Shown here: piece by piece, positions 5,309 to 8,826 of the stretch
Layout: every line of letters begins with the position of its first letter
Numbering within the stretch: position 1 is the first letter of the stretch
DNA from: Jiangella mangrovi
GTDB taxonomy: Bacteria > Actinomycetota > Actinomycetes > Jiangellales > Jiangellaceae
Length of the DNA stretch: 64,000 nucleotides
Direction of reading: 5' to 3'
Assembly: GCF_014204975.1 (NCBI RefSeq)
Contig: NZ_JACHMM010000001.1
Location: 3,906,001 to 3,970,000, forward strand
Program-made: the position numbers and the translations under genes
The notes under the pieces: generated by a model
The model's database searches: none
Told to the model about the DNA's origin: nothing
The model's input: the letters and a program-made list of their open reading frames with translations, nothing else

Positions 5309-5452
5309 CGGCCCGGCCGCGGTAATCCGTTTGCCCGCGGCCGGTCCGTTTGGCATCATCGAGAGCGATGTGATCCGACCGTGACTCCTGCTCGCGCCTG
5401 AGGTGTGTCCGCACCCGGCGAGCTCCCGTCGAACCTCGCCGAGGTCGGTCAC

Positions 5453-7093
5453 GTGTCTCTTCTCTCCGTTCGTTCGCTCTCCATCGCCTACTCCGGCCGT
5501 CCGGTCCTCGACGGCGTCGGTTACGACGCCGGCCCGGGGGAGCGGCTGGGCATCGTCGGCGAGAACGGGGCCGGCAAGTCCACGCTGCTGCGGCTCTCGG
5601 CCGGGGTCGAGGTGCCCGACGCCGGCACCGTCGAGCGGCACGGCACCCTCGGATACCTCACCCAGGAGCCGGAGCTGCCGGCCGGCGGCACGGTCGACGA
5701 CGCCGTCGACGCCGCGCTGGCGGAGTTCCGGGTCCTCGAGGAGCGCATGCGCGCCGCCGAGGCGAGCCTGGCCGACGGCGACCAGTCCGTCCTGGACGAG
5801 TACGGCGACCTCCTCGCCGAGTTCGAGCATCGCGACGGCTGGTCGGCCGACGCCCGGGCGGCCCGCGCGCTCGGCGGGCTCGGCCTGGCCGACGTCGCGG
5901 GGGACCGGGCACTCGACACGCTGTCGGGCGGCCAGCGGTCCCGGCTGGCGCTGGCGCTCGCCCTGGTGCGCTCGCCGGACGTCCTGCTGCTGGACGAGCC
6001 GACGAACCACCTCGACGACGACGCCATCGCGTTCCTCGAGGACGCGCTGCGCGAGTACCGCGGCGCCGTCGTCACCGTCTCGCACGACCGTGCCTTCCTC
6101 GACGGCGTCGCCACGTCGATCCTCGACCTCGACCCCGTCCTGACCGTCGAGCGCGACGGCACCCCGCACGTCGGCCCGGCCCGCTACACCGGCACCTACA
6201 CCGACTACCTGGCCGGCAAGTCCGCGGCCCGGGCCCGCTGGGAGCAGGCGTACGCCACCTGGACCGACGAGGTCGACGAGGCTCGCGCCGTCGTCAAGCA
6301 GGACGCCCGGCGGGTCGGCCACGAGGGACGCGGGCGGCGCGACAACGACAAGTTCGTGGCGCACTTCCTCAGCCAGAAGGTCGACGCCGCGGTCTCGCGG
6401 CGGGTCCGCGACGCCGAGGTGCGGCTGCGCCGGCTCGAGGAGCTGCGCATCCCGAAGCCGCCGCGGCTGCTGCGCTTCGACGCCGCCCTGGGTGCCGACG
6501 TTCCCGACGGCGTGCTGGTGGCGGTCCGCGACGTGAAGGTGCCGGGCCGCATCACCGCCCGTGCGCTCGACGTCACCGCCGACACCCGGCTGATGATCAC
6601 CGGCCGCAACGGCTCCGGCAAGTCGTCGTTACTCGCGGTGCTGGCCGGGGCGCTCGAGCCGGAGACCGGCGAGGTGCTGCGCTCGCGCCGGCTGCGGATC
6701 GGCTGGCTGCCCCAGACCGGCAGCTTCCCCGACCCGTCGCTGACGGCGGTTCAGGCGTTCGCCGTCGGTCGCGCCGGCCCGGCCGATGAGTACCAGGCCG
6801 AGCTGGCCGGGCTCGGGCTGCTGCCCGGACCGGCCCTGGCGATGCCGGTCGGCGCGCTGTCGGTGGGCCAGCAGCGGCGACTGGCGCTGGCCCGGCTGCT
6901 CGTTACACGGCCGCAGGTGCTGTTGCTCGACGAGCCGACGAACCACCTGTCGCTCGGACTGGTCGAGGAGCTGGAGGAGGCGGTCGACGGCGCCGGCCTG
7001 GCCGTCGTCGTGGTGACGCACGACCGCTGGGCGCGGCGGCGCTGGCAGGGCGAACGCGCCGAGGTCGTCCACAACGAGCTGCTGCTGGGCTAG
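5453..7093 (+). CDS. ABC-F family ATPase (ribosome-associated, antibiotic-resistance-like)
   Basis: A 546-residue protein with two ABC ATPase domains and no membrane segments, the ABC-F layout. Domain 1 has Walker A GENGAGKST at about residues 36-44, signature LSGGQRSRLALA and Walker B LLLDEPTNHLD. A charged linker follows, then domain 2 with GRNGSGKSS, LSVGQQRRLALA and LLLDEPTNHLS. Such proteins bind the ribosomal E site, and several actinobacterial members (OleB, TlrC, LmrC type) protect against macrolides and lincosamides. Start GTG 5453 is preferred (GAGG 8 nt before) over GTG 5405, which would add an untypical 16-residue tail. A predicted erm gene lies 0.9 kb downstream. Confidence 0.9.
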   Translation: MSLLSVRSLSIAYSGRPVLDGVGYDAGPGERLGIVGENGAGKSTLLRLSAGVEVPDAGTVERHGTLGYLTQEPELPAGGTVDDAVDAALAEFRVLEERMRAAEASLADGDQSVLDEYGDLLAEFEHRDGWSADARAARALGGLGLADVAGDRALDTLSGGQRSRLALALALVRSPDVLLLDEPTNHLDDDAIAFLEDALREYRGAVVTVSHDRAFLDGVATSILDLDPVLTVERDGTPHVGPARYTGTYTDYLAGKSAARARWEQAYATWTDEVDEARAVVKQDARRVGHEGRGRRDNDKFVAHFLSQKVDAAVSRRVRDAEVRLRRLEELRIPKPPRLLRFDAALGADVPDGVLVAVRDVKVPGRITARALDVTADTRLMITGRNGSGKSSLLAVLAGALEPETGEVLRSRRLRIGWLPQTGSFPDPSLTAVQAFAVGRAGPADEYQAELAGLGLLPGPALAMPVGALSVGQQRRLALARLLVTRPQVLLLDEPTNHLSLGLVEELEEAVDGAGLAVVVVTHDRWARRRWQGERAEVVHNELLLG

Positions 7094-7177: not shown

Positions 7178-7732
7178 ATGACAACCATGATGGAGCGGCC
7201 ACATGCGGTCGACGGATGGACTGTCGCCGACCTCGAGGAGTTTCCCGACGACGGTCTGCGCTACGAACTGGTCGACGGGACGCTGCTGGTGACGCCCGCA
7301 CCGCTGGGACCGCACCAGGACGCGGTCCTCGGGCTCGCGCTGCTGTTGGGGCCTGCGACACCTTCACGCCTGAAGCTCTACATCGCACCTCGTGACTGGC
7401 AGCCGGACGACCGGACGTCGTTCCAGCCCGATGTCTTCGTGATCCGCCGGGAAGACGACCAAGCGGCGCCCATCGCGGCAGCGCCGAGTCTCGTCATCGA
7501 GGTGCTGTCCCGGAGCACGCGGCGCACAGACCGGGCGCTCAAGTACGCGACCTACGCAGAGCACGGGGTGGCGTCGTACTGGATCGTCGACCCGGACGAG
7601 CCGTCCATCGTGGCGTACGACCTGAAGGACGGCGCGTACGTCGAGGTGGGGCGGGCGGCCGGCGACCAGAGCGTCACCCTGCGGCAGCCGTTCGAGGTCA
7701 CCGTCACCCCGAAGTCGTTGGTGTCCGGCTGA
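7178..7732 (+). CDS. Uma2 family restriction-endonuclease-like protein
   Basis: A 184-residue protein of the Uma2/DUF820 family, which has the PD-(D/E)xK nuclease fold and is found in many copies in cyanobacteria and actinobacteria. The fold motifs are visible as FQPDVFVIRRED (Asp) and PSLVIEVLSRSTRRTDRALKYATYAEHGVASYWIVDP (Glu-Val-Leu-Ser, then Lys). Cellular role is unknown. The start ATG has a strong GGAAGGGGG ribosome site. Possible promoter and leader elements of the following erm gene begin at its 3' end. Confidence 0.9.
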   Translation: MTTMMERPHAVDGWTVADLEEFPDDGLRYELVDGTLLVTPAPLGPHQDAVLGLALLLGPATPSRLKLYIAPRDWQPDDRTSFQPDVFVIRREDDQAAPIAAAPSLVIEVLSRSTRRTDRALKYATYAEHGVASYWIVDPDEPSIVAYDLKDGAYVEVGRAAGDQSVTLRQPFEVTVTPKSLVSG

Positions 7733-7748
7733 GCCGACCCGCTAGGCT
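7718..7748 (+). promoter_or_regulatory. Promoter of the erm leader transcript
   Basis: TAGGCT at 7743-7748 is a good -10 box. TTGGTG at 7718-7723 is a weak -35 box at 19-bp spacing. The -10 box ends 6 nt before the GTG at 7755, so the mRNA probably starts at or next to that GTG and the leader peptide is translated without a ribosome site. Confidence 0.6.
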
Positions 7749-7754
7749 GGGAAC

Positions 7755-7817
7755 GTGGGAGTCTTGAAGAACGGCGCTGTGGCGTACTGGCGTCCCCGCC
7801 TGTCCGTCACGGCGTAG
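7755..7817 (+). CDS. erm leader peptide (20 residues)
   Basis: This short frame encodes MGVLKNGAVAYWRPRLSVTA, starting with GTG and ending with TAG. It lies between a -10 box and a terminator-like hairpin upstream of an Erm-type methyltransferase. The residues Arg13-Pro14-Arg15 form the Arg/Lys-X-Arg/Lys pattern at which macrolide-bound ribosomes are known to stall. The inferred role is drug-dependent stalling that changes the folding of the downstream leader RNA and turns on erm. It has no ribosome site, which fits a leaderless start. Confidence 0.75.
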   Translation: MGVLKNGAVAYWRPRLSVTA

Positions 7818-7878
7818 CTCCGCGCACCACCGGCTGACCCCCGTTCAGGGCGGGTCCGGGCCGGAGACACGGGAGCAC

Positions 7879-7933
7879 GCCGCGCCGCGTCCGTCCCTCG
7901 GTGAACACACCCGAGGCGCACGGCGCGGCTTTT
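7879..7933 (+). terminator. Attenuator-type hairpin in the erm leader
   Basis: GCCGCGCCG (7879-7887) pairs with CGGCGCGGC (7921-7929) and is followed directly by TTTT (7930-7933), one of few T-rich tails in this DNA. An inner hairpin (CCTCGG with CCGAGG) lies in the loop. It lies between the leader peptide and erm, the expected place for a transcription attenuator. The competing antiterminator pairing was not worked out. Confidence 0.7.
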
Positions 7934-7977
7934 CGACGTCCTCGTCCTCCCGCGTTCCCGATTGGTCGTGATGACCC

Positions 7978-8826
7978 ATGCCACGGCATTCCCGCATCCA
8001 GAACCGTCAGAACCGCCGGAACGGTCAGAACCGCTCCGCCCGGGGCGGCGCCCCCAACCACGCCGGCATCCACCTGCTCCGCGACCCCGCGGTCAGCGCC
8101 CGGATGGTCAGATCGTCCGCGGCCGGACCGGGCGACCTCGTCATCGAGCTCGGCGCCGGTCTCGGTGCGCTGACCACGCCGCTGGCCGCCACGGGCGCCC
8201 GCGTCATCGCCGTCGAGCGCGACCCCCGGTTCGTCGCGAAGCTGCAGCGCCGGTTCGCCGACGACCCGGGCGTCAAGGTCGTCGAGGGCGATGCGCGCAG
8301 CGTCATGCTGCCGCACCGGCCGTACGCCGTGGTCGCGAACATCCCGTACGCGATCTCGACGGCGCTGCTGCGCCGGCTGCTGGACCCCGAGGCGACGGCG
8401 ATCGCCAGCGCGGACCTGCTGGTCGAGTGGGGGTTCGCCAAGCGGATGACGGCGACCCACCCGCGCGACCTCGAGGTCGCCTGGTGGCAGGCGCGGTTCG
8501 AGCTGCGGATCGCCGGCCGTGTGCCGCCGGGCAGCTTCCGGCCGGCGCCGTCGGTCGACTCCGCGCACCTGGTGATCCGGCGCCGTCCGGGCCTGTCGCG
8601 CGGCCAGGTCAGGACGGCCCGGCGGCTGCTGCAGGACGCCTACCGGCAGCCGGGGCGGCCGGCCCGCGAGGTCCTGGGCGCCCACGTGCCGAAGAAGCGC
8701 GCCCACCGGTTGCTCACGTCGACGGGCATCGACCCGCCGGCCGCGGCCGAGACGGTCCCCGTCGCGACCTGGCTGGAACTCGCCCGCGCCATCGACGCTT
8801 CGGGCGAATCCAGAGATTCTCGCTGA
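7978..8826 (+). CDS. erm: Erm-type 23S rRNA (adenine-N6) methyltransferase
   Basis: A 282-residue SAM-dependent methyltransferase of the KsgA/Erm family. The SAM motif ELGAGLG is at residues 57-63, the acidic 'AVERD' loop at 78-82 and the catalytic NIPY at 121-124. The N-terminus is a basic, repetitive extension (three QNR units) as in Erm proteins of antibiotic producers. Members methylate A2058 of 23S rRNA and give macrolide, lincosamide and streptogramin B resistance. The C-terminus is longer than in KsgA, and the upstream leader peptide and attenuator support Erm over KsgA. The class within Erm cannot be assigned. Confidence 0.9.
   Translation: MPRHSRIQNRQNRRNGQNRSARGGAPNHAGIHLLRDPAVSARMVRSSAAGPGDLVIELGAGLGALTTPLAATGARVIAVERDPRFVAKLQRRFADDPGVKVVEGDARSVMLPHRPYAVVANIPYAISTALLRRLLDPEATAIASADLLVEWGFAKRMTATHPRDLEVAWWQARFELRIAGRVPPGSFRPAPSVDSAHLVIRRRPGLSRGQVRTARRLLQDAYRQPGRPAREVLGAHVPKKRAHRLLTSTGIDPPAAAETVPVATWLELARAIDASGESRDSR

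Follow-up and report, generated by a model that had tools for sequence, protein, structure and literature searches.

How an Erm-type methyltransferase gene of Jiangella mangrovi is controlled is the question raised by a short open reading frame with an Arg-X-Arg motif that lies upstream of it. We analyzed this locus within a stretch of 64,000 nt (called the window in the following) and compared it with erm loci of other Jiangellales and of actinomycetes outside this order. The comparison points to a leader peptide gene that, together with its Arg-X-Arg motif, probably acts as a macrolide- or ketolide-sensing attenuator of erm, with a helix formed by the end of the leader as the candidate switch. 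The coordinates are collected in Table 1.

The original prediction had placed a GC hairpin with TTTT and then an Erm-type gene behind a leaderless 20-codon frame with Arg-X-Arg, and this description was borne out, including the coordinates and the translation of the frame. With the TAGGCT box ending 6 nt before the GTG start codon, we infer with good reason that the transcript starts at or adjoining this codon, i.e., that it is leaderless. TTGGTG further upstream is a weak candidate for the −35 element because the spacer to TAGGCT measures 19 nt; the sequence TTGGTGTCCGG in this region is retained in locus L026, where the region does not code for a Uma2-family protein. A sigma-70 scan gave no match. 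Searching both strands of the 64-kb window for leaderless short ORFs (TANNNT, 6–8 nt, ATG or GTG, 8–45 codons) yielded three, and only the leader described here contained R-X-R.

Conservation was assessed in 20 erm loci of the Jiangellales with at least 56% identity. The leader, a TANNNT box 6–7 nt before its start codon and both arginines are present in all of them, with the 6-nt spacing mostly at GTG and the 7-nt spacing mostly at ATG starts. The motif reads R-P-R in ten loci, R-L-R in seven and R-I-R in three. The first arginine is encoded by CGT, CGC, CGG or AGG and the second by CGC or CGT, without any replacement; judged by these alignments, both basic residues of the +X+ motif are under selection. 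For the whole leader, pN/pS in the Jiangellales is 1.1–1.4 and gives no purifying signal outside the motif, and what is conserved is therefore the pair of arginines together with the RNA and the promoter.

Table 1 Features of the leader region and the Erm-type gene (positions within the window).
Feature	Position	Strand	Evidence or remark
−35-like TTGGTG	7718-7723	+	Overlaps the Uma2-family gene at its 3′ end
−10 box TAGGCT	7743-7748	+	Ends 6 nt 5′ of GTG; TANNNT in 20/20 Jiangellales
Leaderless leader peptide ORF, MGVLKNGAVAYWRPRLSVTA-stop	7755-7817	+	GTG 7755-7757 to stop codon TAG 7815-7817, 20 codons; translation and conservation
P0, hairpin inside the leader ORF	7774-7815	+	MFE −28.2 kcal/mol, z −4.7; compensatory changes
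Arg13-Pro14-Arg15, +X+ arrest motif	7791-7799	+	Arg invariant in 20/20; X = P/I/L
Region 1, last codons of the leader and stop codon	7810-7821	+	Pairs with region 2 in 20/20 Jiangellales
P1, hairpin inside the helix of regions 1 and 2	7830-7864	+	Predicted MFE
D, 5′ strand CGGGAG	7870-7875	+	Pairs with 7947-7952, with T in between; shares bases with region 2
Region 2, partner of region 1	7871-7882	+	Directly 5′ of T; here overlaps the ascending arm of T
T, GC hairpin and TTTT, candidate intrinsic terminator	7879-7933	+	Arms GCCGCGCCG (7879-7887) and CGGCGCGGC (7921-7929), TTTT at 7930-7933; folding (MFE −32.7 kcal/mol, z −2.5), co-variation
D, 3′ strand CTCCCG	7947-7952	+	Pairs with 7870-7875
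erm SD-like stretch GGTCGTGATG	7964-7973	+	Complementary to the leader 3′ end CCGTCACGGC, 7804-7813
Erm-type 23S rRNA adenine N6-methyltransferase gene	7978-8826	+	Best NCBIfam and PDB matches

The protein encoded downstream of the leader matches the NCBIfam model Erm23S_rRNA_broad best (185.2 bits, versus 135.9 for RsmA), and because this score falls under the curated cut-off of 212, it is called Erm-type here by best hit. Its best PDB match is 6nvm, named rRNA adenine N-6-methyltransferase, followed by Erm(38), and a separate RsmA is encoded in the same genome. In a phylogenetic tree the Jiangellales Erm proteins form a supported clade; the tree, which included a wrong-frame extraction with a very long branch (L032), does not settle their position among Erm and RsmA. 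In some relatives of the family (loci L036, L037, L038) Erm is short, about 204–213 amino acids, lacks the C-terminal portion and has a length comparable to that of Erm(37) and Erm(41).

Shortly upstream of erm, an ABC-F ribosome-protection-like gene is located on the same strand (5450–7093, +), whose best NCBIfam match is the TlrC/CarA/OleB/SrmB family with 506.8 bits, below the cut-off of 800. Its combination with erm suggests a two-gene MLS resistance locus, and no leaderless R-X-R short ORF was found 5′ of this ABC-F gene. The ABC-F gene and the erm leader are separated by a Uma2-family gene (7178–7732, +), into whose 3′ end the promoter of the leader reaches. Locus L026 has no Uma2 gene, and there the end of the ABC-F gene directly abuts the conserved promoter.

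Arg/Lys-X-Arg/Lys is an established arrest motif of ribosomes with bound macrolides or ketolides (PMC8298421, PMC6851288). Stalling at R-X-R is very likely the sensor, because leaders with this motif precede erm in 20 of 20 Jiangellales and 60 of 76 other loci versus 1 of 318 controls. RNA polymerase would begin at or adjoining the first base of the leader and a ribosome would translate the leaderless ORF. With the drug bound, it would arrest at Arg-X-Arg, its P site occupied by Pro14 and its A site by Arg15, a placement suggested by analogy to the RYR of tlrB (PMC6851288) and the RLR of ErmDL (PMC8298421). The 3′ edge of the stalled ribosome, about 16 nt downstream, would cover the mRNA to about position 7810 and leave 7810–7821 free; a ribosome that has reached the stop codon without arrest would hide this segment. 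The freed leader end could pair with 7871–7882 beside the hairpin, altering the downstream RNA in such a way that erm is made.

The RNA element with the best support is indeed this helix between the leader end (region 1) and the segment just before the hairpin (region 2). Its core, CGGC-R-U with its partner, is found in 20 of 20 Jiangellales species; compensatory changes occur at several positions, both within and past the stop codon. Of the sequence separating leader and erm, region 2 offers the strongest complement to the leader end in nearly all species. By this comparison, the helix is a better candidate for the switch than hairpin T. The latter is also conserved and co-varies, G-C pairs being changed to A-U in 4 of 16 species, and is followed in the window by a U-run of only 4 nt. 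Another long-range helix, D, is conserved in Jiangella and Haloactinopolyspora and weak elsewhere; it excludes the leader-end helix because it overlaps region 2. RNAalifold further predicted a small conserved hairpin (7964–7983) in which the AUG region pairs with the SD-like stretch of erm. No Rfam family reached its gathering score in the window, with only a weak chance match in this region.

To model the ribosome on the leader, we took each of the 16 species with the hairpin and folded the transcript, including the whole U-run, once for every leader codon with a ribosome set on that codon. The probability of T was 0.77–1.0 in all ribosome positions and all 16 species. Its free-energy gain averaged −19.7 kcal/mol with the ribosome stalled at R-X-R versus −14.8 kcal/mol at the stop codon and was larger in the stalled state in each of the 16 species, and the sign is therefore opposite to that of simple attenuation. 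Equilibrium folding of these species gave no mutually exclusive antiterminator favored by a stalled ribosome, and the alternative folds in which an antiterminator was to be identified showed no stall-dependent loss of T. Of the attenuation model in the original prediction, the leaderless leader, Arg-X-Arg, the co-varying hairpin and the Erm-type gene thus stood, while a regulated terminator removed by stalling found no support in the folding or in the U-run. Equilibrium folding takes no account of kinetics, pausing or coupling, and this therefore only makes the terminator model less likely. For accessibility of the erm SD, we found no consistent response to the modeled stall in the Jiangellales. 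Across a broader sample of 26 erm leaders from actinomycetes, the predicted accessibility rose from 0.28 without a ribosome to 0.36 with a stalled one (p = 0.014); the difference between the stalled and the stop-codon state was not significant (p = 0.19).

These results bear on how the leader might act. Pure transcription attenuation, with T as intrinsic terminator and an antiterminator that the stall promotes to remove T and allow read-through into erm, is a possible but somewhat doubtful account. It agrees with the co-variation of T, with TTTT or TCTT following the hairpin in 12 of 12 Jiangella loci at a near-constant leader-to-erm distance of 219–225 nt, and with the overlap of region 2 and the 9-bp form of T in the window, so that the region 1-region 2 helix would shorten T. 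The U-run, however, is short and lost outside Jiangella though the hairpin is kept, a strict terminator scan of the window (5 T of 8) was negative, and the modeled stall changes the energy of T in the wrong direction. With translational attenuation, transcription would run through, 7804–7813 or another segment would mask the erm SD until the stall frees it, and T would be a mere spacer. The missing conservation of the U-run fits this account, as do the other actinomycete erm leaders, most of which have no T-runs, the slight rise in SD accessibility, and the complementarity of leader end and erm SD seen in several species, which extends to 11 bp in L033. This complementarity was strong compared with shuffles in 7 of 20 loci but not in the others, and together with the inconsistent accessibility in the Jiangellales this leaves translational attenuation, too, a tentative reading that we would not favor by itself. 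For the switch as such, which may act on termination at T, on the translation of erm or, like that of tlrB, on both, we give a transcriptional part nearly even chances and consider a mainly translational mode conceivable, at somewhat below even chances.

A different signal is very improbable. Actinobacteria commonly use leaderless amino-acid attenuators (PMC8079986), and the Trp or Arg codons of W-R-P-R might sense starvation instead of a drug, in line with the Trp12 that stands before the motif in 14 of the 20 loci; yet this Trp is lost in the other six, it is R-X-R and not a run of a single codon that persists across families, and the regulated gene is a methyltransferase of the drug-resistance type. 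An ORF without function, arisen by chance as short ORFs commonly do in GC-rich DNA, was rejected and retains practically no probability, given that 20 of 20 relatives conserve the leader against a control rate of about 0.3%. The drug-sensing leader with the leader-end helix as candidate switch thus stays our preferred reading.

Several components of such a system are already known, namely the attenuation of erm by leader peptides, including transcriptional attenuation, +X+ motifs, leaderless amino-acid attenuators and the control of whiB7 by an upstream ORF (uORF). Transcription attenuation of erm via translation of a leader has been proposed for ermK of Bacillus and tlrA (ermSF) of Streptomyces fradiae. 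Like the Jiangella locus, tlrB/yxjB of Bacillus subtilis combines a short R-X-R leader, a 23S rRNA methyltransferase as the target and a terminator in the leader region, which in Jiangella is a candidate. Its leader senses the macrolide tylosin, the second Arg of RYR lies in the A site when tylosin stalls the ribosome, and experiments demonstrated attenuation at the level of transcription as well as of translation (PMC6851288); a contrast to classical erm control, as originally drawn for the Jiangella locus, was therefore overstated. The tlrB/yxjB leader differs in having an SD, i.e., led initiation, and RYR at its very C-terminus, and the gene encodes RlmA(II) (G748), whereas the Jiangella gene is Erm-type and its attenuation is predicted from sequence comparison.

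The ErmDL or erm(D)-type leader shares with Jiangella an Arg-X-Arg, in ErmDL Arg-Leu-Arg, upstream of an erm gene. This RLR arrests telithromycin-bound ribosomes; stalling by erythromycin at +X+ is less frequent than stalling by telithromycin and in ErmDL does not depend exclusively on RLR (PMC8298421). ErmDL is non-actinobacterial, whereas in the Jiangellales X is Pro, Ile or Leu, the motif lies five codons before the stop codon and the ORF is leaderless. Leaderless attenuators are represented by trpL, leuL and ilvL of Streptomyces lividans (PMC8079986) and by the mycobacterial polycysteine leaders (cited in PMC13236596). Both resemble the Jiangella leader in a leaderless short ORF followed by hairpins, with the position of the ribosome controlling the downstream gene, but they sense amino acids through codon content, whereas the Jiangella leader is proposed to sense a drug through an arrest motif. 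In whiB7/wblC, an actinobacterial uORF and a U-rich terminator likewise precede an antibiotic-response gene; there, a transcription factor is controlled, many translation inhibitors act, and the accessible portion of the source reports no Arg-X-Arg leader (PMC4128351).

To see how far the leader extends outside the Jiangellales, we screened 76 upstream regions from at least 8 families of the class. Sixty-nine belong to matches above the Erm cut-off among 394 actinomycete genomes, and the other seven to one match below the cut-off, plasmid-borne erm(X), erm(36), erm(46), a Nocardioides erm and two Glycomyces loci. A leaderless R-X-R ORF was present in 60 of the 76 regions, with a spacing of 7 nt in 51, 6 nt in six and 8 nt in three cases, compared with 1 of 318 control segments, taken from the window and the locus DNA, and 1 of 76 antisense regions (Fisher p about 1e-54, in which independence is overstated, the loci being kin by descent). 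A few of the 16 misses have R-X-R ORFs with looser spacing. The leaderless leader peptide therefore reaches beyond Jiangella and is probably a widespread drug sensor of actinobacterial erm.

Examples are the leaders of erm(36), MGSPSIAVTRFRRF, of Glycomyces, MAGSPGLNACAAFGPSFIRLRAAA, and of erm(X) on plasmid pTP-CU411 (L118), MLISGTAFLRLRTNR, with RLR and TATAAT 7 nt before the ATG. The latter is leaderless by the same criterion as in Jiangella but has a leader region of 147 nt without a T-run. A distinct leader type of 37–39 codons, e.g., VAANNAIINTGLGRGYAHSVRMRRGPGALTGPGSHAR, occurs in the Streptomyces-like family f19 (L063, L065, L067-L070); midway along it lies R-M-R, or R-K-R in the case of L068, flanked by long conserved stretches. 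The broader view that leaderless Arg-X-Arg is the general actinomycete erm sensor, read by drug-bound ribosomes that start directly at the 5′ end, and that the stall in the Jiangellales acts as a non-canonical switch by building the leader-end helix beside a persisting hairpin, with no removal of a terminator, is speculative and, taken as a whole, unlikely.

In the open-access literature searched, we found no description of leaderless initiation of erm leaders; for the leaderless form as a general rule of actinobacterial erm, this absence is not proof of novelty. If the reading is true, most actinomycete erm genes, including the plasmid-borne erm(X) and erm(36), would have one common sensor, a transcript that opens directly with the first codon of an Arg-X-Arg arrest peptide. 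Context-specific macrolide arrest would thereby be tied to leaderless initiation, and the locus would provide a test case for attenuator switching without an obvious antiterminator. The sequence of TANNNT, 6–8 nt, a start codon and R-X-R would then be a simple rule for spotting inducible erm genes in genomes.
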